64,000 nt of DNA from Desulfofundulus kuznetsovii DSM 6115 (GTDB lineage: Bacteria; Bacillota; Desulfotomaculia; Desulfotomaculales; Desulfovirgulaceae), in contig NC_015573.1 of NCBI RefSeq assembly GCF_000214705.1, positions 953,001 through 1,017,000 on the forward strand, read 5' to 3'. The position numbers were made by a program, and so were the translations under genes. This document shows, one piece after another, positions 3,416 to 54,640 of this stretch (its first letter is position 1; every line of letters begins with the position of its first letter). The notes under the pieces were generated by a model that worked only from the letters and a program-made list of their open reading frames with translations, had not been told where the DNA came from and ran no database searches.

Positions 3416-4240
3416 CAAAGCTGGGGCACAGCAAGGCACAGGCTCGGCGAGGCATGGCATGGCGCGGGCGAAGCAGGGCGAGGCGTGGCCGCGCAAAGGC
3501 ATTGTCCACCCTTGCTTTGCGGGGCAAAGGCAAAGCGCGGCCCGTTTTGCGGCGGCAAAGCGTTGCGTCCCAGGGCAGAGGCTATGCAACGTTAAGCGGA
3601 GCTACGGCATAGCAGGGTCCTGCCTTGCATGGCCGGGCATGCATGGCCGGGCAGCGGCAAAGCAACTCAGGGCGCGGCAGGGGCTTTGCTCAGTTCCGCC
3701 TGGTTCAGTGCCGCATGGGCATGGCAGCGTGCAGTCCAGCAACGCCAGGCAAAGGCAACGCCCGGCGCGGCGGCAAAGCAAAGTACGGCGCGGCGGCGGC
3801 AAAGCAAAGTATCGCGGCGGCCATGCTTCGCACGGCACGGCACCGGCAGAGTTAAGCTAAGTCTGGCAACGGCTCAGTTTGGCTTCGTACGGCGGGGGTA
3901 CGGCGTTGCACCGCGGGGCCGTGGCCAAGCATTGCATAGCCCGGGCACTGTACACCAGGGCAGGGTATTGTGAGGCGCGGCCGGGGCACTGCACTGCCCG
4001 GCACCGGCGAAGCGAGGCGGGGCTGAGGCAAAGTCCGGCACCGCATCGGTATTGCATGGCCATGCGCTTTGTGGCGACGGCGCAGTATCGCAGTGCAAGG
4101 CAGGGGCGTTGCATTGCTGCGCGGCGCGCGGTGCTGCGGCGGTAAAGCCCGGCCCGGCGTTGCTTTGAGCGGCGGCGGTAAAGCCATGCCTGGTTCCGCC
4201 CGGCGGTGCGAGGGCTTGACACAGCAATGCTTTTTGTAAC
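3416..4240 (+). repeat. degenerate 5-nt-periodic low-complexity tract (about 825 bp)
   Basis: This stretch between two convergent genes consists almost entirely of GC-rich words such as GGCAAAGC, GGCATGGC, GGCGAGGC and TTGCAT. In places GGC recurs every five bases exactly (3441, 3446, 3451, 3456, 3461). Stop codons are scarce, so all frames give spurious ORFs of 70-130 codons. None has a ribosome site or a normal protein composition. No gene, promoter or clear long inverted repeat was found in it. Confidence 0.75.
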
Positions 4241-4246
4241 GGCAGC

Positions 4247-4273
4247 AAAAAGCCCCCGCTATTTGGCGGGGGC
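4247..4273 (-). terminator. intrinsic terminator of the minus-strand small-gene operon
   Basis: On the minus strand GCGGGGGC (4266-4273) pairs with GCCCCCGC (4252-4259), followed by a run of five T residues. The stop codon of the ribbon-helix-helix gene (4259-4261) lies inside the hairpin. Confidence 0.85.
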
Positions 4274-4426
4274 CTGCTCCCCGGCGTGCTGCCGGAGGTA
4301 GTCTTCCAGGGCCTGGCGGACCAGGTCTTGGAGGGAGATGCCGGTCTCCACCGAGAGGATCTTTATCCGCCGGTGGAGGTCCGCCGGGATGCGGACGGCC
4401 AGCTTGGTGACCTCTCTAGAATCCAT
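4259..4426 (-). CDS. ribbon-helix-helix (CopG/Arc-type) protein (55 aa)
   Basis: A 55-codon ORF starts at the ATG 4426-4424 behind GGAGGTGTGAT. The N-terminal strand KLAVRIPADLHRRIK and the two helices after it (ILSVETGISLQDLVRQALEDYL) match the ribbon-helix-helix fold that binds DNA as a dimer. It is the last gene of a minus-strand operon of four small genes and ends within the terminator hairpin. It may repress its own operon, whose control region (5360-5504) it would share with the divergent replication genes. The role is inferred from the fold only. Confidence 0.8.
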   Translation of the reverse strand: MDSREVTKLAVRIPADLHRRIKILSVETGISLQDLVRQALEDYLRQHAGEQAPAK

Positions 4427-4427
4427 A

Positions 4428-4673
4428 TCACACCTCCCCCTCTTCTATTTGCCAGGTTTCCCCCACAATCCTATGGGGGAAACACCGGCCACACCAACTG
4501 TGCTGGTTCCACAAGCTACCGCCGCACTCAATACAGCGGTAGCCAACTTCCTCCGCCTCTCCAGGCGGAATATAAGCGGGAGAGGCGGGATCGAGACATT
4601 CGCATACCGGAGGGTTTTCCTCCGGGAAGGTTTTGACAGCGCCGCAACGGGCACAGGTTCCTGTAACCAACAT
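4428..4673 (-). CDS. zinc-ribbon protein (81 aa)
   Basis: The ATG follows aaaggaggaaag. The sequence holds CARCGAV near residue 7, CEC near 24, CIECGGSLW near 48 and CGRCFPHR near 61, enough for two or three zinc sites. The rest is acidic and proline-rich. It ends 1 nt before the ribbon-helix-helix gene, whose ribosome site lies within this gene's last codons, so the two are probably translationally coupled. Likely a nucleic-acid or protein binding adaptor; no exact family recognised. Confidence 0.7.
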   Translation of the reverse strand: MLVTGTCARCGAVKTFPEENPPVCECLDPASPAYIPPGEAEEVGYRCIECGGSLWNQHSWCGRCFPHRIVGETWQIEEGEV

Positions 4674-4765
4674 CTTTCCTCCTTTCTGCCCGGCCTTGCC
4701 CCCGCCGGGCTGGGGAAGTATAGGGCAGTTTTGTTAACCCGGCATACCCAGGCCGGGTGGGAGGA

Positions 4766-5180
4766 TTACCCCTCCCGAGGGATGGCCATACTTTCGAAGT
4801 GGTCTACAACCTCCCACTCCGAGTAGTCACCGGGATAGTACCCGGCGAGGCCACCCGGGTAACGGATCTCATAGTGCCGGCACCCTATATTCCAGGCGCC
4901 AGCCTCTGTCTGCAGGTGCCAGCCACTCTCTGTTTTGTATGCCCCAGTTTTCCGGCCAGTCTTCCTCCGGGATCCAGTCCTGGAGACTGCCGGAACCACG
5001 GCCATCCGGCAGATACAGAATAGTATCTCCGGACGGGGTGGTAACTTCCAGGTAACCGGGCACGTCCTCCAGAGGCCGCAGGGCAACCGGGAAGTCCTCT
5101 TTCACAGGCTCCAGGCCGTCCCAGTTCCCGGGGAGGTTGGCAACAGCGTTACACACGGTGTTCCAGGTGGTTTGCAACAT
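4766..5180 (-). pseudogene. hypothetical protein with probable frameshift
   Basis: The first frame runs from ATG 5180 (ribosome site aaggagg in the end of the preceding gene) and reads convincingly through EEDWPENWG near residue 80. It then stops at 4869. A second frame overlapping it continues with YKTESGWHLQTEAGAWNIG and ends at 4766 with a well-composed tail (GGLAGYYPGDYSEWEVVDHF). A single-base change near 4950 would join the two into one protein of about 138 aa. This may be a sequencing error or real decay. The protein is Trp-rich and acidic; no function recognised. Confidence 0.55.
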
Positions 5181-5182
5181 GA

Positions 5183-5359
5183 TTATTCAACCTCCTTCGC
5201 TTCTTCATCGTGCCATTCTGGATTGCCGCCGCAGGGGTAGGAGCCCTGCAGGTTCTTTTGCCGGTACTCCTCCCACTCCTTGAGGATTTCCGGCGTCAGG
5301 TTCGGGAGTTCTCTCCCGCAACCAGGACAGCGGGGGGTGGCTTCAGTTTTTTGGAACAT
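5183..5359 (-). CDS. small Cys-containing protein (58 aa)
   Basis: The start is placed at the ATG 5359-5357, where AAAGGAGG lies at good spacing; an upstream in-frame ATG lacks a ribosome site. The protein has CPGCGRELP near residue 11, an acidic helix, and a third Cys in SYPCGG. It is probably a mini zinc-binding protein. It is the first gene of the minus-strand operon 5359-4259. Its end overlaps the ribosome site of the next gene. Function unknown. Confidence 0.6.
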   Translation of the reverse strand: MFQKTEATPRCPGCGRELPNLTPEILKEWEEYRQKNLQGSYPCGGNPEWHDEEAKEVE

Positions 5360-5462
5360 TCTGATCATCCTCCTTTTGGTTTTGTGGCTTGCCGTCTTGC
5401 TAGCTTGCTTCCAGTATAGCAAGCCAGGTGGAGGCCGTCAAGGGGTTTTTGCCAAAAAGTTA

Positions 5463-5492
5463 TCGACAAAATTCGACAAAAATTGACATAAC
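5463..5492 (+). repeat. three 10-bp direct repeats before the DnaD-like gene
   Basis: TCGACAAAAT, TCGACAAAAA and TTGACATAAC follow each other without gaps, just upstream of the start at 5505. A DnaA-box-like TTATCGACA overlaps the first one. They lie in the divergent control region between the replication genes and the minus-strand operon, and could be operators or initiator binding sites. Confidence 0.55.
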
Positions 5493-5504
5493 GAGGTGTT
5501 TTGG

Positions 5505-6365
5505 GTGCCTAAAAACAAAGGCTGGTTCCGGCTGTACGACAGGATGATAGACAGCCCCCAGGTGCTGGAACTGAATGATTCCGAATTCCGGCTGCTCATC
5601 TCGCTGTGGTGCCTGGCCAGCTCGGAAAATAATCACGGCCTGGTGCCATACTCGGACGCGGCCATCCGCCGGCGGGTCATGCCGGAGAAATCCCTGGAGG
5701 AAATCCGGCAGATGCTTGCCCACCTGAAGGCGTTGGACCTGCTGGCAGGGGAGGAAGGGAAATACGAAATCCCGCGCTGGGACATCCACCAGTATGGCTA
5801 CCCGTCCCGCGTGCCGGAAAACAGGGCAGATTATAAGGAAAGAAATCGGAAAACTATCGGAAAGTCATCGGAAAGCAATCGGAAAGCGGACGGGGAGAGT
5901 ACGGAAAGTGGCGGGGAAGGAATCGGAAAGTCATCGGAAAGCGATGGGAAAGAAATCGGTAAGGTAGATCCAGATACAGATAAAGATCTAGATATATATG
6001 TGTGTGTTAATAATAGCGCGCGCGAATTTGAAAAGCGTAAGGGCAGACCAATCTCTCCCGCCGAAGCCGAATTCTTCCAGCAGGCAGAAGAAATCCACGG
6101 ACCTGAGCTGGTCCTGGAAGCCATCGCAGAAGCCTTCCGCCAGAAGAAAAACCCCCACCCGGGCTATATCCGGGGCATCCTTGAAAACTGGGCGCGGGAC
6201 GGCCTGCGGACCGTCGAGGATGTACGCCGGGCGAACGAAAAGGCAACGGAAAAACATCGGAAAGACAACGGAAAGGGTGAGGTAAATGGACGGGCTGACC
6301 CCGTGGCAGACGGAGATAAGTACGCTATTCCTGCCGACTTCTACTGGCACGACGAAAGCAGCTGA
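5505..6365 (+). CDS. DnaD-like replication initiator / replisome organiser (286 aa)
   Basis: A winged-helix-like N-terminal domain (about 1-105, GWFRLYDRMIDSPQVLEL) is followed by a Ser/Lys/Glu-rich linker (about 110-155). The C-terminal domain carries the DnaD pattern PGYIRGILENWARDGLRT near residue 230. This is the standard layout of phage initiators that open the origin and recruit the helicase loader, here the DnaC-like gene just downstream. GTG 5505 is preferred because GAGGTG sits at good distance; a GTG at 5496 overlaps that site. The linker is encoded by an 11-bp iteron array, so the origin probably lies inside the gene, as in the lambda O gene. Confidence 0.8.
   Translation: MPKNKGWFRLYDRMIDSPQVLELNDSEFRLLISLWCLASSENNHGLVPYSDAAIRRRVMPEKSLEEIRQMLAHLKALDLLAGEEGKYEIPRWDIHQYGYPSRVPENRADYKERNRKTIGKSSESNRKADGESTESGGEGIGKSSESDGKEIGKVDPDTDKDLDIYVCVNNSAREFEKRKGRPISPAEAEFFQQAEEIHGPELVLEAIAEAFRQKKNPHPGYIRGILENWARDGLRTVEDVRRANEKATEKHRKDNGKGEVNGRADPVADGDKYAIPADFYWHDESS
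5845..5965 (+). repeat. 11-bp iteron array inside the initiator gene (candidate origin)
   Basis: ATCGGAAA or a one- to three-base variant recurs exactly every 11 bp at 5845, 5856, 5867, 5878, 5889, 5900, 5911, 5922, 5933, 5944 and 5955. Since 11 is not a multiple of 3, the repeat is kept at the DNA level, not by codons. It is followed by an AT-rich stretch (about 5975-6015). A second group in the same 11-bp register lies at 6245, 6256 and 6267. Iterons beside an AT-rich stretch inside an initiator gene are a typical origin layout. Confidence 0.75.
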
Positions 6366-6975
6366 CTGGCTAACTGAAGAGCTGGCCCTGTTATTCGGCG
6401 GCCGCATATATTCCCGGCAGCAGTTGGAAGCGGCCGCGGCGGAGATAGACATGGCCATGAAGACGGACCGCATCTGTCCCGGCTGCGCCGGCCTGGAGGC
6501 ATGCGTCATGCCCACGGCGGGCTGGCAGGTGTTTTTCGATGAAGCCGCCGCTGACATGTACCGCCGCCCGTCCTTCCGCTGGCGGCAGTGCCGGTACAGG
6601 AAAGATGCCCAGCAGAAGGAGCAGGAGAAGGTCATGCTGGCGCCCAGGTTCCAGCAGCGCAGTTTCGCCACGTTCCAGGTAACCCCTGAGAACAAGGAAG
6701 CCCTGGAGAAGTGCCGGCGGTACGCGGACAGCCTTTCCCTGTCCACTACCCAGGGGCTGATGCTCATCGGCCCGCCCGGGACGGGGAAGACTCACCTGGC
6801 GGCGGCGATCGCCAGGGCGGCCCTGGAGAAGCGGGTGCCGGCGGCCTTCGTGGTGGTGCCGAACCTGCTGGACGAGCTGCGCCGGGCCGTCAAAAGCGAT
6901 GAAAATGATGTCGAATATATGCTAAGTGCTCTCCGGAACGCTGGACCCAACATTGTTGCTTGTAAGCAGGCTTAG
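6286..6975 (+). pseudogene. DnaC/DnaI-like helicase loader, truncated after Walker A
   Basis: The protein has an N-terminal cysteine cluster (CPGCAGLEAC near residue 65), then the AAA+ Walker A GPPGTGKTH near residue 165 and LLDELRRAV. A helicase loader should continue with Walker B and sensor motifs, but after about position 6936 the sequence changes and the frame stops at 6975. The ATPase domain is therefore cut roughly in half. The loss falls where the cargo region with hairpin leaders begins, so the gene was probably cut by the cargo's arrival. The ATG at 6286 overlaps the initiator gene by 80 bp, so a later start is possible. Confidence 0.75.
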
Positions 6976-7699: not shown

Positions 7700-8617
7700 G
7701 TGAGGGATTGGGATTCGAAATCATGGCAGAGAGAACTGGAAAAGGCCGGTTATCTAGCTCCGGCGAAGGTCTGCACGGCCCTGCAGGTGGCCGCTGCTTT
7801 AGAGAAACCGCTTTTAATCGAAGGGCCGCCGGGAGTGGGTAAGACGTTTCTGGCAAAGGCTGTCGCCCGGGTGACCGGTTCCCGATTGATCCGCCTGCAG
7901 TGCTACGAAGGTATCGACGCATCCCAGGCGCTGTACGAGTACAACTACGGCAAGCAGCTGCTGTACGTCAACATTCTGCGGGAACAGATCAAGGAGAAAC
8001 TGAACGGTGCGTCTTTGAAAAAGGCCGTAGAGATTCTGGATACGGAAGCGCCGTTCTGGGGCAGGGAGTTTCTGGTGAACCGGCCGGTGCTGGAAGCCCT
8101 GGACCCTGGTGACGACGTGCCGCGCGTGCTGCTGGTGGACGAGATAGACCGGTCAGAACGGGAGTTTGAAGCGCTCCTGCTGGAAGCGTTGTCCGACTTC
8201 ACACTGAGCATACCCGAGTTCGGCACTGTACAGGCCAGAAGAAAGCCGGTAGTGTTTCTGACATCGAACCACACGCGGGAACTTTCGGAAGCACTGCGTC
8301 GCCGGTGCATTTACCTTTATATCGACTACCCGTCAGTGGATGAAGAGACCCGGATTATTATGGCCAACGTTCCCGGTGCGGGCAGGGAATTTGCCAGGAA
8401 GGTAGCACAGATCATCAACGTATACCGGAAGGCGTCTCCCCGGCACAAGCCGTCAGTGGCCGAGACCATCGATCTGGCAGTTGCGTTACTGGCGACTGCT
8501 GGAGAGAACTTTAATACAACTGACGTAGTGAATGTTGTTTCCACGTTCTGCAAAAACAAAGAAGACGAGCCTGCTGCGGAAAATGCTGCGCAGTCAGTAC
8601 TGGAGGGAGAGGTGTAG
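7700..8617 (+). CDS. MoxR-family AAA+ ATPase, system copy 1 (305 aa)
   Basis: Walker A EGPPGVGKT is near residue 41, the subfamily motif LQCYEGIDASQALYEYNY near 65, and Walker B VLLVDEIDR near 142. The CYEGID/NYGKQLL pattern matches the CoxD-like branch of MoxR ATPases, which remodel client proteins together with a vWA partner. GTG 7700 is preferred because it aligns with the start of the second copy (17871) and follows AAAGGGGG; a longer upstream extension is unconvincing. It is the first gene of the operon MoxR, winged-helix partner, vWA. The partner begins 3 nt after its stop. Copy 2 shares long identical blocks. Confidence 0.9.
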   Translation: MRDWDSKSWQRELEKAGYLAPAKVCTALQVAAALEKPLLIEGPPGVGKTFLAKAVARVTGSRLIRLQCYEGIDASQALYEYNYGKQLLYVNILREQIKEKLNGASLKKAVEILDTEAPFWGREFLVNRPVLEALDPGDDVPRVLLVDEIDRSEREFEALLLEALSDFTLSIPEFGTVQARRKPVVFLTSNHTRELSEALRRRCIYLYIDYPSVDEETRIIMANVPGAGREFARKVAQIINVYRKASPRHKPSVAETIDLAVALLATAGENFNTTDVVNVVSTFCKNKEDEPAAENAAQSVLEGEV

Positions 8618-8620
8618 CCC

Positions 8621-10387
8621 GTGCTGGTCGTTGACGATTCCAACCGCAGCGATGTAAAGGCCGCGCTGGTGCGCGGCCTCAAACCCCACTTCGGGGACCT
8701 GGACGACCTCATCCCGGAGAAGCTGCTCTGGACAAGCAAGAAAGGCTCAATTATGCTGGGTGCAGTGAATACAGGCAGCGGTATTTGTCTTGTACGGGGT
8801 AAATTTATATCGAAAAATGTTGTCGATACTCCGGAAAAATTAGAGCAGAAACTTCTCAATATTTCGCCGAATCAGCAAGATTACCAGCATATAGCTAATG
8901 TGGTAAAGCAGCTCGAAAATGGAATGCTGTCAGCAATAAACGCATGTGCGGTGGGACGTACGGTCGGTTGTGACAACGGGGATGATATCCTCTGCCAGGA
9001 AGTTATTTCCCTGCTCTACCGGGAACCACCGGATGATCCGGAGCTTTTCGAAAATTTGCTGTCCCGATTCCAGGCCTGCGATATTCGTATCGTAAAAAGA
9101 AAGAAAGGTAAAATGAACCTGCACGTAAAAGGTACAGCAGTGCCGAAACCGAACCGTTTTTTATTTGACGAACTTGCATTCTTTGCAGGCACAGCAGCCC
9201 GGAGTGCCGGTCTGAGAATACCGGACGGGACAGTTGCCGATGCCGTCAGTGCCGCCCGCGGCGAACACCGGAAGTTCGTTCGTAAAGTTGGGATGCTCCC
9301 GATGCTAGATACGACCTTAGATAACTTGCTGCGGCGGAAGGACAAAAAATATCCCAAACTTTACTCGGCGCTGTGGAAAGCAGTCAACTGCACGCACAGC
9401 GCCGAAATGTTGGACGTCAGGTTCGGTGTCAACGGCTTCGATGTGTCCTGCAAGAACTGCGATTTCAAAATTGCTTATCATCCAAACCGGGGCGTCCAGG
9501 CGTACCCGTTTTTCGACGGGAACCCTAAACTAGACACCTTTCTCGAGCATGTTTTTACGGTACAGAAAATATATACCGCAGGTAAAGCGGTCCGGGAAAG
9601 TTGCGCTGGCGTAGCGGAGCAAATGGTGCGCGAGCTGGACGATACCCGGAACAGTATTCATCCCCTGATCAGGTGCGCTCCCGCGGTCAGCCAGTCGCTG
9701 CAAAGAGCTGAAGGGTTTTACGGTGACGCGCGAATTGGTTACGTAGATATTGATGGCCCGTCAGGCCGTTGTTGCATTGCCGGCGAAGCACTGCCGGAGA
9801 CCGGTGTGAGTCCCGGAATTTTACTGGGAACGTTCCGCAAGCTGCTGGACGACTGTCGAAAAAAAGCAGAGAGTATTGCAAAGAGCCAGGACGTTATGCC
9901 GTTCGCCGATGTCATCGTCATACTGCGGTCTGTACTGGACCACAACAGAAAATTCGGCGCCGGCACGTTCACCCTGCTCCTGAGCGGCAGCAGGTCAAAA
10001 CGCCTGGACGAGCTGGACCTGCTCCAGTCCAGGTGGTACGGTGCGTTAAGACAGTACCGCCAGGCAGATATTAAGCAGGTCATAGACTGGTTGCTTAACA
10101 GCGGCCTGCTGAACGTCGTGTACAAGACCAGGCACGATTTGCCGCTGCTGTCAGTGCCCAATTCGGTTATCGAAATTCTCGATAACACTGAGGATAGTCA
10201 ATATCCTGAGAACTCGCTCCCGGACGAGCGTGTTTTCATGCGGGCTATCGACGGTAATGACGTTCAGACGGTGCGGGATCTCTGCGAAAAAGACTTTTCT
10301 TTCGCTCTGTACCTGAAAGCGGCCGAAATCCTCGTTCCCAAGGGGAAGGAAGCGAAAATGGCGAAGGCGGTGTTTGCCAATGATTAA
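8621..10387 (+). CDS. winged-helix / zinc partner of the MoxR-vWA system, copy 1 (588 aa)
   Basis: This large protein sits between the MoxR and vWA genes. It shares three regions with the 581-aa protein at 20378. The first is a Cys-x(20-22)-CxxC block (SCKNCDF near residue 285). The second is a segment at about 424-510 resembling the RQC winged helix of RecQ helicases (LLLSGSRSKRLDELDL, then a hydrophobic LPLLSVPNSV). The third is a C-terminal LVPKGKEAKMAKA. The RQC fold binds duplex DNA ends and G-quadruplexes in RecQ, so nucleic-acid recognition is a reasonable guess. No enzymatic motif was seen. GTG 8621 follows ggagaggtg. It overlaps the vWA gene by 8 bp (ATGATTAA). Confidence 0.75.
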   Translation: MLVVDDSNRSDVKAALVRGLKPHFGDLDDLIPEKLLWTSKKGSIMLGAVNTGSGICLVRGKFISKNVVDTPEKLEQKLLNISPNQQDYQHIANVVKQLENGMLSAINACAVGRTVGCDNGDDILCQEVISLLYREPPDDPELFENLLSRFQACDIRIVKRKKGKMNLHVKGTAVPKPNRFLFDELAFFAGTAARSAGLRIPDGTVADAVSAARGEHRKFVRKVGMLPMLDTTLDNLLRRKDKKYPKLYSALWKAVNCTHSAEMLDVRFGVNGFDVSCKNCDFKIAYHPNRGVQAYPFFDGNPKLDTFLEHVFTVQKIYTAGKAVRESCAGVAEQMVRELDDTRNSIHPLIRCAPAVSQSLQRAEGFYGDARIGYVDIDGPSGRCCIAGEALPETGVSPGILLGTFRKLLDDCRKKAESIAKSQDVMPFADVIVILRSVLDHNRKFGAGTFTLLLSGSRSKRLDELDLLQSRWYGALRQYRQADIKQVIDWLLNSGLLNVVYKTRHDLPLLSVPNSVIEILDNTEDSQYPENSLPDERVFMRAIDGNDVQTVRDLCEKDFSFALYLKAAEILVPKGKEAKMAKAVFAND

Positions 10388-11819
10388 CGCACTTACCCTG
10401 GAAAAGTCACTGTCCGGCTTCAGCCGGTTCCTGCGGCAGAACGACATGCCCGTAGCCGTTTCCGAAACCGTGGACGCGGTTAACGCCGTGCTGGCAGTCG
10501 GGCCGGTTACACTGGACGATTTCAGGGAAACGCTCGCCTGCTGTTTTGTGAAGAGCGCGGACAATATCTCCCGGTTCAACGACCTGTTCGACAAATATTT
10601 CCTGCGCCAGGACGTCCGGGAGTCTGCCGTTCTGGCTGCACTCGCCCTGCGCCAGGGCCTCTCTCCCGTCGACTTGCCCAGTGGCGCGGGCGGACAGTCG
10701 GATGACATGACAACGCTGCCGGAGCAGGACGGGAGTCCGACACCGCAGGGCTGGCGGAAAAACCTCGCGATGTTCGGTGAAATACCAGACTCCTTCCGGT
10801 TATTCCTGGAAGGCAGGCACCGGGACGCCACCCTGCGCTTGATTAAACAGCCGCTGACCATTTCGGTCCGCAAGTCCATCCCAAAAGCGGTTTTCAAAGC
10901 CGCTTCCCGGGGTTTGATTCGAAAGGACGATATGGAAGATGTCCTCAATGTTCTCAGAAATTTTGCGGAGCTGGCCCGGGAAGTGGAAAAATTGGCCGCT
11001 CTCAAACACCGGTCGGAACCGGTGTTCGGTCCCAGCGCGGTCACCCGTTCGCCGGCAGTCATCGGTGAATGCCCGCCGGACCTGCTAGATGCGAATATTG
11101 GTACGCGGCGGGAGGAGATGCGCCGGGTGCTGGACATGATCGCCCGCCAGATTTATACAGGTATGGCCAGACAGTTAGGTACTTCAAACTACAAGAAAGC
11201 TGTAGATTACAAGGCGACAATCAGGCAGAGTTTGAGGACGCTGGGCGAACCGTTCAGCGTGGTGAGGCGGGCCAGGAAGAGGCGCTTGCGCCGGCTGGTC
11301 ACAATCTGCGATGTTTCCGGTTCGGTCAAATATGCTACGGAGCTGCTGTTTTGCTTCATGTACGAGCTGCACCGGGCGTTTGAGGGCCGGGCGAGGCACT
11401 ATGTGTTTGTCAGCGCAGTCGACGACGTGACAGCCTATTTCGAGGAGCCGGACTTCGAGCGGTGTCTGGCCGGCATTTCCCGTGCAGGTATAGACTTCCG
11501 GGGATATTCCGACTACGGCGCGATGTTCAGGATGTTTGCTGAGGAATACGCATCGCACGTGGACAGCGACACGGTGGTGCTCGTCCTGGGCGACGCCCGG
11601 AACAACAGGCGTGCGGACGGCCGGGAGGTGCTGGCGGGGTTGAACGCCCGGGCGCGGGCGGTGATATGGCTGAACCCGGAAGACCCGGCCAAGTGGGACC
11701 GCGGGGACTCCATCATCGGCGTGTACCGCCGCTGCGTCAGCCGGGTGGTAGACATAAGCACGTTCGGCAACCTGCTAGGCTTCCTGACCGACCTGCCGAA
11801 GATGGTCTTAGCGAGATGA
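10380..11819 (+). CDS. vWA (CoxE-like) protein, system copy 1 (479 aa)
   Basis: The N-terminal 280 residues are helical, and a C-terminal von Willebrand A domain carries the MIDAS motif DVSGS near residue 311 and a second metal-site motif LGDARNN near 403. The sequence around them (RRLRRLVTICDVSGSVK) matches CoxE-type vWA proteins that work with MoxR/CoxD ATPases. Start ATG 10380 overlaps the stop of the partner gene, so the two are translationally coupled. The vWA domain would bind Mg and a client protein, with MoxR providing ATP-driven remodelling. A terminator follows at once. Confidence 0.88.
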   Translation: MINALTLEKSLSGFSRFLRQNDMPVAVSETVDAVNAVLAVGPVTLDDFRETLACCFVKSADNISRFNDLFDKYFLRQDVRESAVLAALALRQGLSPVDLPSGAGGQSDDMTTLPEQDGSPTPQGWRKNLAMFGEIPDSFRLFLEGRHRDATLRLIKQPLTISVRKSIPKAVFKAASRGLIRKDDMEDVLNVLRNFAELAREVEKLAALKHRSEPVFGPSAVTRSPAVIGECPPDLLDANIGTRREEMRRVLDMIARQIYTGMARQLGTSNYKKAVDYKATIRQSLRTLGEPFSVVRRARKRRLRRLVTICDVSGSVKYATELLFCFMYELHRAFEGRARHYVFVSAVDDVTAYFEEPDFERCLAGISRAGIDFRGYSDYGAMFRMFAEEYASHVDSDTVVLVLGDARNNRRADGREVLAGLNARARAVIWLNPEDPAKWDRGDSIIGVYRRCVSRVVDISTFGNLLGFLTDLPKMVLAR

Positions 11820-17870: not shown

Positions 17871-18803
17871 ATGAACGCTGCCGAATGGCAAAAAGAACTC
17901 GAAAGAGTATCATATGTACCGGCCAGGGAGATCTGCGCCGTCCTCTCCCTGGCTGAAGTACTCAAGAAACCTGTGCTTGTCGAGGGTCCGCCCGGTGCCG
18001 GCAAAACCTATCTGGCGAAAGCGGCGGCCAGGGTGCTGGGTGCAAAACTCGTACGTCTGCAGTGCTACGAGGGAATCGACGTCAGCAGAGCAGTCTACGA
18101 GTACAACTACGGCAAACAACTCTTGTATTTGAACGCTCTTCGTGACCGGGTGGCGCAGGTACTGAACGGCACGAAGAGCCTGGGGGAAGCCGTAAGCATT
18201 CTCGACCGGGAAGCCCCCTTTTGGGGTGAAGAATTTCTGGTACGCAGGCCGGTTCTGGAAGCGTTGGCTCCCGGGGATGGGGTGCCGCGCGTTCTGCTTG
18301 TCGACGAGGTAGACCGCGCCGACAGGGAATTTGAAGCCCTGTTGCTGGAGGCCCTCTCCGACTGGGCAATATCTATTCCCGAATACGGAACGGTAATTGC
18401 AGAAAAGGAACCCCTAACCATACTTACTTCCAACAGGACGAGAGACCTGTCTGACGCCCTCCGCCGCAGGTGTCTCTATCTATGGCTGGATCTGCCCGAC
18501 AGGAACAGAGAGGCCAAAATCATCGAAGCACAGGTACCCGGTGCGAGCAGAGAATTTGCCCGTAAGGTGGCCTGTTTCATGGAAGAATACCGGAGGATGT
18601 CGCCGAAACACACACCATCAGTAGCGGAAGCGGTAGAACTGGCCCTGGCGCTCCTGACTACCGCCGGTGAAGAATTCAGTGTCGAGGATATTGAGTCGGC
18701 TTTACCCGTTTTCGCGAAAAACAGGGACGACGTAAAGCTCGGCGTGCGTGCAGCGGAAAAAACACTCAAAAGGGCCGAAGGGGGCGCGGGAAGTGCTGAG
18801 TAG
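17871..18803 (+). CDS. MoxR-family AAA+ ATPase, system copy 2 (310 aa)
   Basis: This is a close paralogue of the ATPase at 7700: Walker A EGPPGAGKT near residue 38, LQCYEGIDVSRAVYEYNY near 62, and Walker B LLVDEVDR near 141, with long shared blocks. The ATG follows aaggagggtttttt. Here the order is MoxR, vWA, partner, while copy 1 is MoxR, partner, vWA. Its stop overlaps the vWA start by 11 bp, so the ATPase and vWA proteins are probably made in matched amounts. It most likely remodels a client presented by the vWA protein. Confidence 0.9.
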   Translation: MNAAEWQKELERVSYVPAREICAVLSLAEVLKKPVLVEGPPGAGKTYLAKAAARVLGAKLVRLQCYEGIDVSRAVYEYNYGKQLLYLNALRDRVAQVLNGTKSLGEAVSILDREAPFWGEEFLVRRPVLEALAPGDGVPRVLLVDEVDRADREFEALLLEALSDWAISIPEYGTVIAEKEPLTILTSNRTRDLSDALRRRCLYLWLDLPDRNREAKIIEAQVPGASREFARKVACFMEEYRRMSPKHTPSVAEAVELALALLTTAGEEFSVEDIESALPVFAKNRDDVKLGVRAAEKTLKRAEGGAGSAE

Positions 18804-20295
18804 TGATACGCTCCTGCGTTCCCTGACGGGTTTCGTAGAATACGTAAGAAAGAAAGGGTTACAGGTGAGCCCCGCCGAAGCCGCAGACGCGGTACAGGCT
18901 GTGCAGGTACTTGCACCCCTTTCCCTGTCCAACCTGCGCGAAGTTCTCCGGCCCTGTATGGTTAAAAGCGTCGCCGGTTTTAAAAAGTTCGACGACGCCT
19001 TTGACGAATACTTCCTGGATGACAAAAAACCTGTAGTGGTCGCCGTGACCGCCCTGGCCTCTTTAGAGGCCGGGGGGTCCGGTCGGAAAAAAGGAAAGAA
19101 ATGGTCTAGAGGTGCATCCGGTAGTACAGATGAGGATACGGACGGACACCGCACGGAACAACCGGTACCTGGCAGGCATGTAGGATGGAAAGAATCTCTG
19201 GTAAAACTGGAAGATGGAACCCGGCTTCCCGAATCGTTCAGGTTGTTCATGGCCGGTGAAAAATTTTCCGCTGCGGCGGAGCTGGCGCGAAACCCACTGA
19301 CAGATGCAGACCGGAAGGCAATCACTGCAGTCCTGGGCAGGCTGGCCGTATACGGTGAACTGACTGGGGAGGACCTGCCTGCCGTAACTGAAATGCTCAG
19401 AGAATACGTTGAACTGGGTAAGGCAGTGGAGAAATCGCGTTCTCAAATTTCCAGTAAGAGAGACGTTTCCGACAGGAGAATAGAAACCGGGGAATACCGT
19501 CCACATATTCATGCACCTGTCGTTCGGGTAGACAGTATCCCGCCGGATCTGCTCAACGCCAGGCTGGAGAAGCTGGACAGGAAACGTCTTGCCCTGTTGA
19601 CCGCGGAAATAGAGCGGGCGGCGGCTGCCCTGAAGCCGTTTTTTGCCCGGACACCCGGCCCGGCCAGCAGGAAAAAGGCGCTTGACTACAGGAAAACCCT
19701 GCACGGTAGCCTGGCCACGTTCTGCGAGCCGTTTAAATTGTTCTACAGCGCAAAAAGGCGCAAACTGCGCAGAGTGGTCACTGTTTGCGACCTGTCCGGG
19801 TCGGTTAAAAACGTGACCGGTTTGTACCTGGCGTTCATGTACGGCCTGCATCAGGCATTTGAAGGCCGGGCAAGGCATTTTGTGTTCGTATCCGAAATTG
19901 ACGAAGTTACGCCGTACTTCAGCCTGAACTCTTACGAAGAATGTTTCGACAGGGTAACCCGCGCCGCAGCGGTGGACTACAGGGGTTTCTCCAATTACGG
20001 GAAGATGCTCAGGAAACTCTTCGATAAATATCGTGACGCTTTCGACCACGAGACCGTAGTAATGTTCCTGGGCGATGCCCGGACAAACAAGTACGACCCG
20101 GAAGCGGACATTATGGCACAAATTTCTGCTATGGTTAAGAAACTCTTTTTCCTCAACCCGGAAGACCCGAGGGAGTGGCACACCGGCGACTCAGCTGTAG
20201 CCGCGTATAAAAAAGCGGCTGAATTTGTGGACGTGAGCAGGTTCGGCAGGTTACTGGACTTCCTGGGAAAACTGCCCGGGGTGGTGGTGGGATGA
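18793..20295 (+). CDS. vWA (CoxE-like) protein, system copy 2 (500 aa)
   Basis: The C-terminal vWA domain has CDLSGSVKN near residue 331 as MIDAS and FLGDARTNKYD near 425. The block RRVVTVCDLSGSV and the following MYGLHQAFEGRARHFVFVSE align directly with copy 1. The N-terminal half is helical and less conserved. GTG 18793, inside the end of the MoxR gene and behind AAGGGGGCG, aligns with the copy-1 start. It is followed by a long hairpin and then the partner gene. Confidence 0.88.
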   Translation: MLSSDTLLRSLTGFVEYVRKKGLQVSPAEAADAVQAVQVLAPLSLSNLREVLRPCMVKSVAGFKKFDDAFDEYFLDDKKPVVVAVTALASLEAGGSGRKKGKKWSRGASGSTDEDTDGHRTEQPVPGRHVGWKESLVKLEDGTRLPESFRLFMAGEKFSAAAELARNPLTDADRKAITAVLGRLAVYGELTGEDLPAVTEMLREYVELGKAVEKSRSQISSKRDVSDRRIETGEYRPHIHAPVVRVDSIPPDLLNARLEKLDRKRLALLTAEIERAAAALKPFFARTPGPASRKKALDYRKTLHGSLATFCEPFKLFYSAKRRKLRRVVTVCDLSGSVKNVTGLYLAFMYGLHQAFEGRARHFVFVSEIDEVTPYFSLNSYEECFDRVTRAAAVDYRGFSNYGKMLRKLFDKYRDAFDHETVVMFLGDARTNKYDPEADIMAQISAMVKKLFFLNPEDPREWHTGDSAVAAYKKAAEFVDVSRFGRLLDFLGKLPGVVVG

Positions 20296-20296
20296 T

Positions 20297-20360
20297 ACCT
20301 GCCTGACGGTCACCGCACCCGCCCCTCTGAAGGAGGCAGGTTCCCAGGCCGCATTTTTTT
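20297..20360 (+). promoter_or_regulatory. hairpin between vWA and partner genes, copy 2
   Basis: ACCTGCCT (20297-20304) pairs with AGGCAGGT (20334-20341), with a T run at 20354-20360. The T run is 12 nt from the stem, so this is a weak terminator at best. It could lower expression of the partner relative to the two upstream genes. Confidence 0.45.
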
Positions 20361-20377
20361 CTATGGGGGTGAAAATT

Positions 20378-22123
20378 TTGAATAAAAGCGACTCACAGTG
20401 GGTGCGGGAAATCTTCCGCCGAGTCATGGAACAAAAAGGTTGTGTCCCCCGGCAGCAGAAAAGCTTTGAGCGGATCAGGGTGTCCAAGAAGGGACACGTT
20501 CTCCTGGACAATAGCATGATTCTCAGCAACTCCTTCCTGAAACGAGAAGGAGCTTTAACGGAGAATGGCATGGAAAAGCTGCTTTCCACGCTTTTACCTG
20601 CTGCTGTGGAAAAGATAAAGGACGCCCTGGACAGTCCTCCCAACCGCTGTCCGTTGCCGGCACTGAATGCATGCGACTTTGCGGCTGAAACGGAACCGGG
20701 GGAAGAACCTCCCGCCCTTCTTCTTGAGAAGTTTGCTGAATACCACCGGGATTACTCTGCACGGCTCCGCAAGTTCACCGGTAAAGTTTTCGACGGCCTT
20801 GCCCCGTTTCCTGAATTTGAGTCCGAATCTGTCGCGGCAAGGGCCGGTTGTGTTGTTTCGCCGGAGACTTTTTCTGTCGTCAGGAGGCGTGACGGGCGGT
20901 GGGTGCTCACGTGCGGGCGGTGCGGTTTGATTGCCGTATTTCCGTCTATAGAGGCGGGAAAACCGCAACCCGACCAAATAGGTACGAACATCGACAAGGA
21001 CATGCAGATCATAACCCTTTATGCAGCATCTGCCTGGTCAAAATATCTCTACGAGGACGGCATAATCAACGAAGCGGAGCGGTGCGCAAAAGAAGCGGAG
21101 GAGAAGCTGGCCGGTCACATATATTCTAAAGAACTGGCCGCGAAACTGCATGAACTCAAGACTATAGCCGGAAATTTAAAGCGTGGTGAGTTAACCTTAT
21201 ACGGTGATTCGCTGGCTGTCCCTGGTCCCAAACCACCCGTTCCCGTACGTGCAGTGGGAGAATACCTTGCATCTGTTCTTACGGAAATCAATGCTGGGCA
21301 GAAGATGTCAGTCGAAGAAGTCCGGCATGTTCTTTGTCAAACGTGGGGAGAATCGGGAAAGGAACTGTGGGAGAAAGCACAAAACAAGTGGGCCGGACTG
21401 CCTGCACTTTACCGGCTCCTTCCCGCCGCTAGGCGGGCGTACGAAAGGCTTTCAGCCTTCGCCGGGGCGTGGGAGCAGGGGAAAATAAAAGTAATAGGAG
21501 GCGTCCTGCACCTGGGGGGAGAATCTTTTGCAACTCCCGATGGGCAGACCGCTCTTTCCATCCTGGAACACCACTTTCGTCAGTTTGAAGACAGTTTGAC
21601 CGGGCGGGAACTGCTGGGCGATATTGAAACTATCAAGAAAGTGCTGCAGTATATAGCGGATAACCAGGGTGAGGTGGGAGTAACAACTGCGGTTGCCGTT
21701 TTAACCGGGAGCAGGGCGAGCAAAATAATGCAGAAAGGGTACGACAAATCGCCCTATTACGGTATACTCCGAGGACAGTATACGCAACAGAAGCTTGCTG
21801 AACTTGTCAATCGTCTGGTCAGGGAAGGTTTGCTGACGGTCAAATACATTGGTTACTACGAATTGCCTGTACTGCATGTACCAAAGGCGGTCCAGAAGGC
21901 GCTGGGCGAACTCGAAAAAGGCGTCTCGACGGAAGAGAAAAAAGATCGCCTGTGCCGGATGATAGATACCGCTGTCAAGAACAGGTCGTGGGAAGAACTC
22001 GGTAGCATGGTCAGGGAAGGGGAATTTGCTGCAGAGGTGGTCTTGGTAGCAGCCTCTATCTTCTGGCCTACCGGCAAGGCTGCAAAAGTTCTGACCGAGG
22101 TTCGGAAAACTGTTCCTGCATGA
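20378..22123 (+). CDS. winged-helix / zinc partner of the MoxR-vWA system, copy 2 (581 aa)
   Basis: Like the copy-1 partner (8621), it has a Cys-x22-CxxC block (LTCGRCGLIAVF near residue 185) and an RQC-like winged helix at about 411-505: TAVAVLTGSRASKI, then YDKSPYYGILRGQYT and LPVLHVPKAV. The GSR-x(n)-YGI spacing is close to the RQC domain of RecQ proteins, with no helicase motifs present. The C-terminus IFWPTGKAAKVLTEV parallels copy 1. TTG 20378 is preferred (site GGGGGTG), though an ATG at 20363 is possible. The likely role is target recognition for the MoxR-vWA pair. Confidence 0.75.
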   Translation: MNKSDSQWVREIFRRVMEQKGCVPRQQKSFERIRVSKKGHVLLDNSMILSNSFLKREGALTENGMEKLLSTLLPAAVEKIKDALDSPPNRCPLPALNACDFAAETEPGEEPPALLLEKFAEYHRDYSARLRKFTGKVFDGLAPFPEFESESVAARAGCVVSPETFSVVRRRDGRWVLTCGRCGLIAVFPSIEAGKPQPDQIGTNIDKDMQIITLYAASAWSKYLYEDGIINEAERCAKEAEEKLAGHIYSKELAAKLHELKTIAGNLKRGELTLYGDSLAVPGPKPPVPVRAVGEYLASVLTEINAGQKMSVEEVRHVLCQTWGESGKELWEKAQNKWAGLPALYRLLPAARRAYERLSAFAGAWEQGKIKVIGGVLHLGGESFATPDGQTALSILEHHFRQFEDSLTGRELLGDIETIKKVLQYIADNQGEVGVTTAVAVLTGSRASKIMQKGYDKSPYYGILRGQYTQQKLAELVNRLVREGLLTVKYIGYYELPVLHVPKAVQKALGELEKGVSTEEKKDRLCRMIDTAVKNRSWEELGSMVREGEFAAEVVLVAASIFWPTGKAAKVLTEVRKTVPA

Positions 22124-41483: not shown

Positions 41484-41630
41484 AGAATTCAGGCCTCCAA
41501 CCGGCATTTGCTGCGCTGATGTTTCTCACATTTCATGTTTACTTTAATACTATACCATATCCTGTCAGCAGGAGCAATATAACCAGCGGTGGGCTATCAT
41601 GCCGACCGCTTTTTTACTGGAGGTAGCAGA

Positions 41631-42611
41631 ATGAACGAAGCTGAGCCAAAAACTTTTTTATGCGATAGACGGCAGCGCGGGTGGTTTTGGGATTATAACG
41701 ATGTTTTCGAATCGGGCCTTTCAGCCAACGCCATGCTGGTGAGATTGTACCTTGCCAGGTGCGCCAACGGAGACCGTCAGGCGTGGCCATCGCTGAATAC
41801 TATAGCCAGGAATTGCAGGATCAGTAAACCCACGGTGATAAAAGCCCTCAAGGAGCTTGAGGAAAAAGGATGGCTGGAAAAGGTCATACGGAAGCGACCC
41901 AACCAGGAGTATGAGACAACCATATACGTCCTCAAAGACCCACCGGTTACGGGCACCGCCGATTCTGGCCCGGAGGAGGGGGGTGGTAAAGCAGGTTTAC
42001 CACCGGTAAAAAATAAAACCGGTGAAGACAGGGGGGTGGTAAACGACGTTTACCACCTGGTAAACCAGTTTGACAACCTGGTAAAGCAGGTTGACTCTAA
42101 CAATACCCAGATAAAAAGAAATATTGTTGTTGTTGATAAACCGGGGACAGATGTCAACAATTCCCAGGAAACTGGCTCCGGTGACCATGAGGTTGGGGAG
42201 TGCCCCAAAGGGGAGGAAAACCCGGGTGACGAGCAACCAGCACCGGAAGACCGGGACGTTTCCAGGCTCCGGGCCCTCACGCGGGAAGCTACCGGAGCCG
42301 AAGTAGAAGGCGAATTTTTCGAGCGGCTTTTGAAGTTTTACCCGGCAGACCAAATCAGGCAAAAGATCACGCTTGTTGGCAACATGGGCGAGAGCACCGG
42401 GATCCGAAACGTGCCGGGGTTGATCGTGGCGGCCTTGAGGGGAGATTTCGAGCACATTCCCGGCAGGCCGCAATTGACAAGCGAGGTTACGAGACAGGAC
42501 GGCAGTACCCGTAAAAAACGAGCCGGCCCGGGTCCGGCAAGTAAAACCTATGACGATGAAGACTTGAAGCAAAGAAAGCGGGAATTGCTCAAATCCCTGT
42601 ACCTGAGTTAA
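41631..42611 (+). CDS. winged-helix replication initiator-like protein (326 aa)
   Basis: The N-terminal 110 residues contain a winged helix (SLNTIARNCRISKPTVIKAL, then LEEKGWLEKVIRK), as in initiators of plasmids and integrative elements. The middle is a linker encoded by a cluster of inverted repeats (41982-42091). The C-terminal part is helical and DnaD-like in tone (FERLLKFYPADQIRQKITLV). ATG 41631 follows CTGGAGGTAGCAG. The coupling-protein gene starts just downstream. Replication of the excised circle is the likely role; a plain transcription regulator is the alternative. Confidence 0.7.
   Translation: MNEAEPKTFLCDRRQRGWFWDYNDVFESGLSANAMLVRLYLARCANGDRQAWPSLNTIARNCRISKPTVIKALKELEEKGWLEKVIRKRPNQEYETTIYVLKDPPVTGTADSGPEEGGGKAGLPPVKNKTGEDRGVVNDVYHLVNQFDNLVKQVDSNNTQIKRNIVVVDKPGTDVNNSQETGSGDHEVGECPKGEENPGDEQPAPEDRDVSRLRALTREATGAEVEGEFFERLLKFYPADQIRQKITLVGNMGESTGIRNVPGLIVAALRGDFEHIPGRPQLTSEVTRQDGSTRKKRAGPGPASKTYDDEDLKQRKRELLKSLYLS
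41982..42091 (+). repeat. inverted-repeat cluster in the initiator-like gene (candidate origin)
   Basis: GGTGGTAAA-N5-TTTACCACC (41982-42004) and GGTGGTAAAC-N3-GTTTACCACC (42035-42057) are perfect inverted repeats. CTGGTAAACCAG (42057-42068) and AACCTG-N5-GCAGGTT follow. All share the core GGTAAA(C). Such clusters bind initiators or regulators. Confidence 0.7.
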
Positions 42612-54121: not shown

Positions 54122-54640
54122 ATGGCCATGCCGGGAGAAGCGATCAATGAAATCGCGGCCACCAGCGAACAACCGCCGGGCGATGCTCCACCACGGCACC
54201 TGGTGTCCCAGGAATTCCTTGTCCTGTTCCAGCAGATTAACCGCTCGGACGAGAAGGTAACTCAACGAATTGATCACGTGGACAGTAAACTTACTGACCG
54301 GATCAATCGCCTGGATGAAAAAATGACCGAGCGAATCAACCAGGTCGAGGGCCGGATAAACCAACTGGATGGCCGGATAAGCCAGGTGGAAGGCCGGATA
54401 AACCAACTGGAGGGGCGGATAAATCAGGTTGAGGAGAAGTTAACCAGCCGGATCAACCAGGTGGAAGAAAGGTTGACCAACAAGATAGATCGGGTTGATG
54501 AAAAACTAACCGATCGAATAAACCAGGTGGAAGATAAGCTGGCCGAACGTCTTGACAACCTGCGGTTTTGGGCTATAGGCGCGGTAGTAGCCATAGTGGT
54601 GGGGTTCATCGGCACAATTGTCACCCTGATCAACCGTTAA
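54122..54640 (+). CDS. heptad-repeat coiled-coil protein with C-terminal membrane anchor (172 aa)
   Basis: From about residue 35 to 140 the protein is built of seven-residue units such as RINQVEG and RINQLDG, encoded by 21-bp DNA repeats. These form a long parallel coiled coil. The C-terminus is a membrane helix (FWAIGAVVAIVVGFIGTIVT) with a short tail, so the coil would stand in the cytoplasm or project from the membrane. Start choice among 54122 and 54128 is uncertain. Similar proteins are common in Desulfotomaculum-type genomes (from memory). Function unknown. Confidence 0.72.
   Translation: MAMPGEAINEIAATSEQPPGDAPPRHLVSQEFLVLFQQINRSDEKVTQRIDHVDSKLTDRINRLDEKMTERINQVEGRINQLDGRISQVEGRINQLEGRINQVEEKLTSRINQVEERLTNKIDRVDEKLTDRINQVEDKLAERLDNLRFWAIGAVVAIVVGFIGTIVTLINR

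Follow-up and report, generated by a model that had tools for sequence, protein, structure and literature searches.

Replication origins that lie within the gene of their own initiator are already known from phage lambda and from plasmid pSK41. In lambda, iterons stand in the middle of the O initiator gene (ori-lambda) and are followed by an AT-rich region that is unwound, and the helicase-loader gene comes next (PMC7466680). In the staphylococcal plasmid pSK41, the winged-helix N-terminal domain of the RepA_N-type protein Rep binds Rep boxes at the center of the rep gene; the origin encodes a linker that the protein can do without, and both domains of Rep resemble DnaD (PMC5703833). Chimeric Rep proteins of the pPR9 type carry an HTH_36 N-domain on the pSK41 C-domain, the N-domain and the origin having been exchanged jointly and the C-domain kept (PMC5703833).

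Here we examined a 64,000-bp stretch of Desulfofundulus kuznetsovii DSM 6115 (the window; bases 953001 to 1017000 of the 3,601,386-bp genome; positions are those of the window unless marked otherwise). Positions 5845 to 6015 very probably constitute a replication origin located within the gene of a phage-type initiator, in the manner of lambda O and pSK41 Rep. The features of the locus are as follows.

4359 to 6903, plus strand: phage-derived segment, collinear with viral contig L004 (1 to 3274) at 75 to 95% DNA identity in blocks
5505 to 6365, plus strand: initiator gene encoding a winged-helix N-domain, a disordered linker and a DnaD/DnaB_2 C-domain (Pfam, PHROG, model and PDB matches)
5508 to 5840, plus strand: N-domain coding part, the probable iteron reader (homology to relatives; iterated profile, E = 1.7e-24)
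5845 to 5963, plus strand: main array of eleven 11-bp iterons, consensus ATCGGAAAGNN; units at 5889 and 5911 weak, an extra weak unit at 5834
5966 to 6015, plus strand: probable DNA-unwinding element, AGATCCAGATACAGATAAAGATCTAGATATATATG..., with six-base AGAT repeats and then an AT-rich run; low stability, and a like repeat in nearly all relatives
6024 to 6230, plus strand: DnaD/DnaB_2 C-domain coding part (PF07261 at amino acids [aa] 173 to 241), presumed to recruit the helicase or its loader
6234 to 6277, plus strand: second, 3′ cluster of four units (AACGAAAAG, AACGGAAAA, ATCGGAAAG, AACGGAAAG), directly before the loader start codon
6286 to 6975, plus strand: truncated DnaC/DnaI-like helicase loader; as far as 6903 its DNA is 95.5% identical to that of the L004 loader, and beyond this point the sequence is unrelated

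The sequence-only reading of this DNA had described eleven ATCGGAAAG-like units at 11-bp intervals, and the step is indeed exact, with starts at 5845, 5856 and so on to 5955. Nine units agree with ATCGGAAAG at no fewer than 7 of 9 positions; the other two, at 5889 (GACGGGGAG) and 5911 (GCGGGGAAG), are weak by inspection (5/9 each). In the 244 kb of genome around the locus there are six exact copies of ATCGGAAAG, always inside the initiator gene and on the plus strand, with no copy outside the gene on either strand. Unit positions 1 to 9 are conserved in the main array and positions 10 and 11 are free, as binding sites would show and recent slippage would not. Selection at the DNA level had also been claimed, since the period does not match codons. 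Synonymous-codon shuffles, which leave the protein sequence unchanged (n = 2,000), gave 50.3 ± 5.5 lag-11 matches in the main array, with a maximum of 69, versus 81 observed (0/2,000 reached this value). The repeat thus exceeds coding constraint, and the earlier estimate of roughly one site per helical turn is upheld by the 11-bp spacing. A 10-bp ATCGACAAAA repeat at 5462 to 5488 was not counted as part of the origin because it is partly present in L004, which uses other iterons.

In the initiator gene, the main array is followed by an easily melted stretch (5965 to 6015), the C-domain part and the 3′ cluster; the linker-coding part holds both the iterons and the unstable AT-rich stretch. The AT-rich character first assigned to 5975 to 6015 is confirmed (A+T at 32 of 41 positions), and 51-mers starting near 5965 rank up to 46th least stable among the 63,949 in the window. 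In the 3′ cluster, the units at 6245, 6256 and 6267 are real and the one at 6234 is weaker (lag-11 matches at 25 of 33 positions versus 17.4 ± 2.5 expected; 0/2,000 synonymous shuffles as high). These three units had been read as in register with the main array; they keep 11-bp steps among themselves but are out of phase with it (6245 − 5845 = 400 bp, or 4 modulo 11). L004 has no such cluster at the matching place.

The protein had been read as 286 aa long, consistent with a GTG start at 5505; the relative L003 has ATG at the equivalent place. Its C-terminal domain is a DnaB_2 domain (PF07261, E = 2.7e-13, 49.8 bits versus a cutoff of 22), and the protein matches the DnaD-like helicase loader PHROG 186 (E = 1.2e-24), while its N-terminal part matches replication initiation proteins in PHROGs. 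The predicted model contains helices and a wing at about aa 5 to 96 and a helical domain at aa 169 to 253, and the linker (aa 117 to 167) is predicted to be disordered (pLDDT < 50). In the PDB, the model matches DnaD over the whole protein (9a5c_B) and the DnaD C-domain (2zc2_A, Z = 8.8). The modeled N-domain resembles RepA N-domains over about 86 residues (4pql, Z = 8.5; 5kbj, 8.4; 4pt7, 8.3), scores that general CRP-type winged helices tie. In direct Pfam searches at E values up to 1, the window protein matched neither RepA_N (PF06970) nor Phage_rep_org_N (PF09681). Its N-domain is homologous to those of L003 (68% identity), L005 (36%) and others, and several of the homologs aligned to it pass the PF09681 cutoff. 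The window N-domain therefore appears to be a divergent PF09681 relative that falls below Pfam detection, not a member by score.

The proposed likeness to ori-lambda, placed within a DnaD-type initiator gene, is borne out by the anatomy: iterons in the linker part, then the AT-rich stretch, with the loader gene next and a PF07261 C-domain in the protein. Lambda, however, has four iterons (six in Stx phages), each an inverted repeat, whereas the window has about eleven short direct 9-bp units at 11-bp steps; the ATCGGAAAG units are nonpalindromic and lack the inverted repeats of lambda O sites. The DnaD-type C-domain is a further difference from lambda O. As in pSK41, the origin candidate lies centrally in the initiator gene, by anatomy only; the modeled N-domain aligns with RepA structures 4pql, 5kbj and 4pt7, at scores that CRP-type winged helices equal. 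In contrast to the four Rep boxes of pSK41, the window has another iteron layout, no RepA_N sequence match and a phage-type loader gene that overlaps the initiator gene. The PF09681 replisome organizer gp45 of Listeria phage A500 shares a homologous N-domain, GTAACG-type units at 12-, 11- and 10-bp steps and an AGATA-type stretch; the window protein differs from PF09681 organizers in being below Pfam detection for that family.

Relatives were found by protein or profile search, and the 11-bp spacing with changed letters occurs in relatives from three bacterial phyla. In L003, ACGGWAA units repeat with an 11-bp step where the window has its array. The same period is seen with TGTCGCAA units in L005 and L060, with GTCACG units in L061, L062, L063, L087 and L096, with GAACGAGG units in L069, and with GTAACG/GAAACG units in L090 to L095, L123 and L124 (Pseudomonadota, an Acidobacteriota bin and phages) and in L074, L076, L125 and L126 (Bacillota and phages). 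Unit types across the relatives are CGGWAA, GTCACG, GTAACG, GTCGCAA and GAACGAGG. Step counts obtained from hand-chosen cores with a spacing filter are descriptive only; the unbiased test of the period was a count of every pair of identical 5-mers within the linkers of 30 nonredundant N-domain genes, with host dnaD genes and N-domain parts as controls. Pairs 11 bp apart numbered 213 versus 24.4 ± 7.1 in synonymous shuffles (z = 27), and pairs 22 bp apart numbered 122 versus 16.2 expected. The 11-bp excess holds without the window, L003 and L004 (164 versus 21.2 expected) and in the non-Bacillota set of seven Proteobacteria/Acidobacteria genes and phages (43 versus 6.6 expected); it is absent from 22 host dnaD genes (15 versus 10.1 expected) and from the N-domain parts of the initiator genes themselves (12 versus 9.6 expected). 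Such a linker array was not seen in L077, L083, L085 and L103, a minority of the 30 genes. A separate series of 6-, 12- and 18-bp pairs in the 30 linkers comes from hexamer repeats after the array. On the N-domain tree, iteron type clusters (9 changes versus a shuffled mean of 14.2; 0/200 as low). By its linker array at 10- to 12-bp steps followed by ACAGA/AGATA repeats, the window fits this group of 11-bp in-gene iteron initiators.

These comparisons bear on two other accounts of the repeats. The first is that selection acts on the peptide, a repetitive disordered linker (SSES..., DTDT...): the linker is predicted to be disordered, DT/ET-rich peptides recur, and the 6- and 12-bp periods are partly codon driven. 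However, 11 is not a multiple of 3, the units occupy all three reading frames, shuffles that keep the peptide fall short of the observed repeat, and the peptides encoded by the linker differ wholly between relatives. The synonymous-shuffle tests already largely refute this account, which we regard as extremely improbable. It had been set beforehand that relatives keeping the peptide and losing the 11-bp period would speak against an origin; the opposite was found, the period being kept and both unit and peptide changed. The second account, a tandem-duplication (slippage) product without function, could draw on L069, in which the 11-bp copies are nearly identical. It is very unlikely given that conservation in the window is confined to unit positions 1 to 9 and that the same period recurs with unrelated units in three phyla.

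In nearly all relatives, ACAGA/AGATA repeats follow the array, usually starting 1 to 9 bases past its last unit, and among 26 genes, 20 have their least stable 41-mer in the 60 nt downstream of that unit (2.2 expected). ACAGA motifs number 86 versus 45.8 ± 4.6 under synonymous shuffling, and their reading frames are mixed in L004, L063, L069 and L095; this excess and the mixed frames indicate that the stretch is selected as DNA and does not merely encode a DT/ET-rich peptide. In Bacillus subtilis, the single-strand element bound by DnaD consists of TnnT pairs (PMC10201434). By inspection, neither the ACAGAT repeat nor its complement contains a regular TnnT motif, and we therefore do not claim identity with the DnaD element.

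In L004, L069, L096 and L063, a second array of the gene's own unit, at 11- to 12-bp steps, lies in the 90 bp preceding the start codon, pointing to autoregulation as an additional role of the iterons. They might even be mainly an autoregulatory operator of the initiator gene, with no origin, a reading that the position of the window's 3′ cluster directly before the loader start codon would also favor. The linker array is nevertheless the constant one: the window, L061, L087 and L095 have it and lack the upstream copy, and no ATCGGAAAG copy with up to 2 mismatches precedes the window's start codon. The least stable DNA of the gene, moreover, lies a few bases past the array, and an operator needs none. 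An operator without an origin thus seems unlikely, and the operator and origin roles would be compatible with each other.

Comparison with L004 points to exchange of the part that confers specificity. L004 has no DNA counterpart of the initiator gene up to 6285; the C-domains share 65% protein identity, the N-domains about 27% with weak significance, and the L004 iterons (TGTCACGA at 11 to 12 bp) are entirely unlike those of the window. The N-domain and iterons thus appear to move jointly as a specificity module, exchangeable while the C-domain and loader stay. This is the same exchange of N-domain and origin with the C-domain kept as in pPR9, and it would be a natural case in which replicon specificity changed and the helicase-loading part was retained, as proposed for pPR9 to escape incompatibility. 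The window N-domain differs from that of pPR9 in belonging to another family, and the window's own HTH_36 gene (41589 to 42611) has a different repeat layout.

A CRISPR array elsewhere in the genome (genome 2,990,697 to 2,994,914; L144) contains 57 exact copies of the repeat core, and three of its spacers match L004: one exactly (31/31) within the initiator N-domain, one over 32 bp at 91% and one over 37 bp at 89%. The host lineage has accordingly met L004-like phages; none of the spacers matches the window's own initiator. An apparent second initiator at genome 2.99 Mb was rejected, as it proved to be the CRISPR array.

From the anatomy, the excess over coding constraint, the period conserved across relatives and the joint change of N-domain and iterons, all directly observed, we infer binding, oligomerization, melting and helicase loading at this origin. 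The N-terminal winged helix would bind its own gene head to tail, with one protomer per 11-bp unit. Protomers would then lie on nearly the same helix face and could oligomerize across the array, and the oligomer would strain the adjoining AT-rich stretch of AGAT/ACAGA repeats until it opens. The DnaD-type C-domain would bring the helicase and loader to the opened strand, and the linker peptide would act mainly as a tether whose DNA carries the sites. Against an in-gene origin we counted the loader truncation, the lack of a skew turn (both below), the tie between RepA and CRP-type folds for the N-domain, and the four relatives with upstream arrays, in which part of the iteron role may be autoregulation.

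We further suggest, tentatively and at somewhat less than even confidence, that these genes represent a large undescribed class in which PF09681-like N-domains, joined to C-domains of several kinds and found in Bacillota, Pseudomonadota and an Acidobacteriota bin, share one origin grammar written in linker codons. One winged-helix protomer per helical turn would read a free unit at a fixed period, and the frame-independent ACAGA/AGATA repeats a few bases past the array would form a specific single-strand element that serves to open the strands or load the helicase, with a role perhaps like that of DnaA-trios or of the DnaD recognition element. In-gene origins as such are known, as described above for lambda O and pSK41 Rep; a fixed 11-bp grammar with a free unit and an ACAGA-type stretch in PF09681-like initiators was not found described in the literature searched, a weak absence given that few subscription papers were covered. 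An initiator linker with 11-bp units followed by an ACAGA-type stretch would offer a rule for finding origins of phages and integrative elements from sequence alone, and the relatives offer natural pairs of N-domain and iterons for working out recognition.

An iteron-pattern search of viral contigs gave 24 matches, of which only L042 (identical to L003), L046 and L049 lie in clear replication genes; L039 is a possible further case interrupted by the contig end. An 11-bp CGGWAA array alone was rejected as a diagnostic, since other viral-contig matches fall outside replication genes, and a search of a plasmid collection gave one weak, unrelated-looking match. CGGAAAC occurs every 11 bp in two further linkers: in L049, that of a phage replication protein of the DUF1376 type (reverse strand, with the array at 1554 of the reverse complement), and in L046, that of a DnaD-like replication protein without a Pfam match (array at 746). 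Given these two cases, the 11-bp layout may not be confined to this N-domain family.

The initiator gene lies within a 211.7-kb integrative element (genome 776,049 to 987,756) inserted in feoB, whose N-part is at 34.8 to 36.1 kb of the window and whose C-part is about 212 kb away, at genome 775.8 to 776.0 kb. Both element junctions have CTGACCAA in common, and a large serine recombinase is encoded at the right end; excision would restore feoB. A true phage origin module may here be a relic or passive passenger of this element, no longer used. The phage-like segment stops within the loader gene at 6903, ahead of the part reading VVLDDLGAERVTDW in L004, which by resemblance is probably the Walker B region, and the loader has 229 aa here versus 297 in L004. 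Elsewhere in the genome, the loader C-part has a single match, which adjoins the chromosomal dnaD locus, and GC skew over the element rises monotonically with no turn at the initiator gene, a result that is uninformative. On the other side, the initiator frame, iterons and AT-rich stretch are intact, and the element bears further replication-type genes (sliding clamp and CHC2-type primase) besides a PD-(D/E)XK/Cas4-like nuclease and coupling proteins. We give the relic reading about an even chance; it is compatible with the in-gene origin design and concerns present activity only. Firing in this genome is doubtful because the element's own loader is truncated, although the host loader near chromosomal dnaD could substitute for it. 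Of the origin candidate first put forward, the in-gene design is thus upheld and well supported as an evolved arrangement; its current use as the element's origin is not, given the truncated loader and the skew without a turn, and a working origin in this genome is only possible.

The HTH_36 gene at 41589 to 42611 (PF13730; PHROG replication initiation) is a second initiator-like gene in the window. Its linker contains GGTGGTAAAC...GTTTACCACC dyads spaced by about 21 bp (repeats at about 41984 to 42095); the gene adjoins a TraG-like coupling gene and a second serine recombinase, and is perhaps another in-gene origin, of the pPR9 type. Elsewhere in the window, 7703 to 11819 and 17871 to 22123 hold two diverged three-gene copies of an operon for a MoxR ATPase, a large protein and a CoxE-type vWA protein, with an RQC-like domain in the large protein of one copy; a further vWA-like protein adjoins an ATPase in L128 (10458 to 12935). 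About 800 bp at 3430 to 4250 are G+C rich and apparently noncoding, and consist of irregularly spaced short words, among them GGCAAAGC, GGCATGG and CGGCGCGG. Finally, a 21-bp tandem repeat at 54338 to 54434 encodes a heptad-like INQVEGR/INQLEGR peptide repeat.
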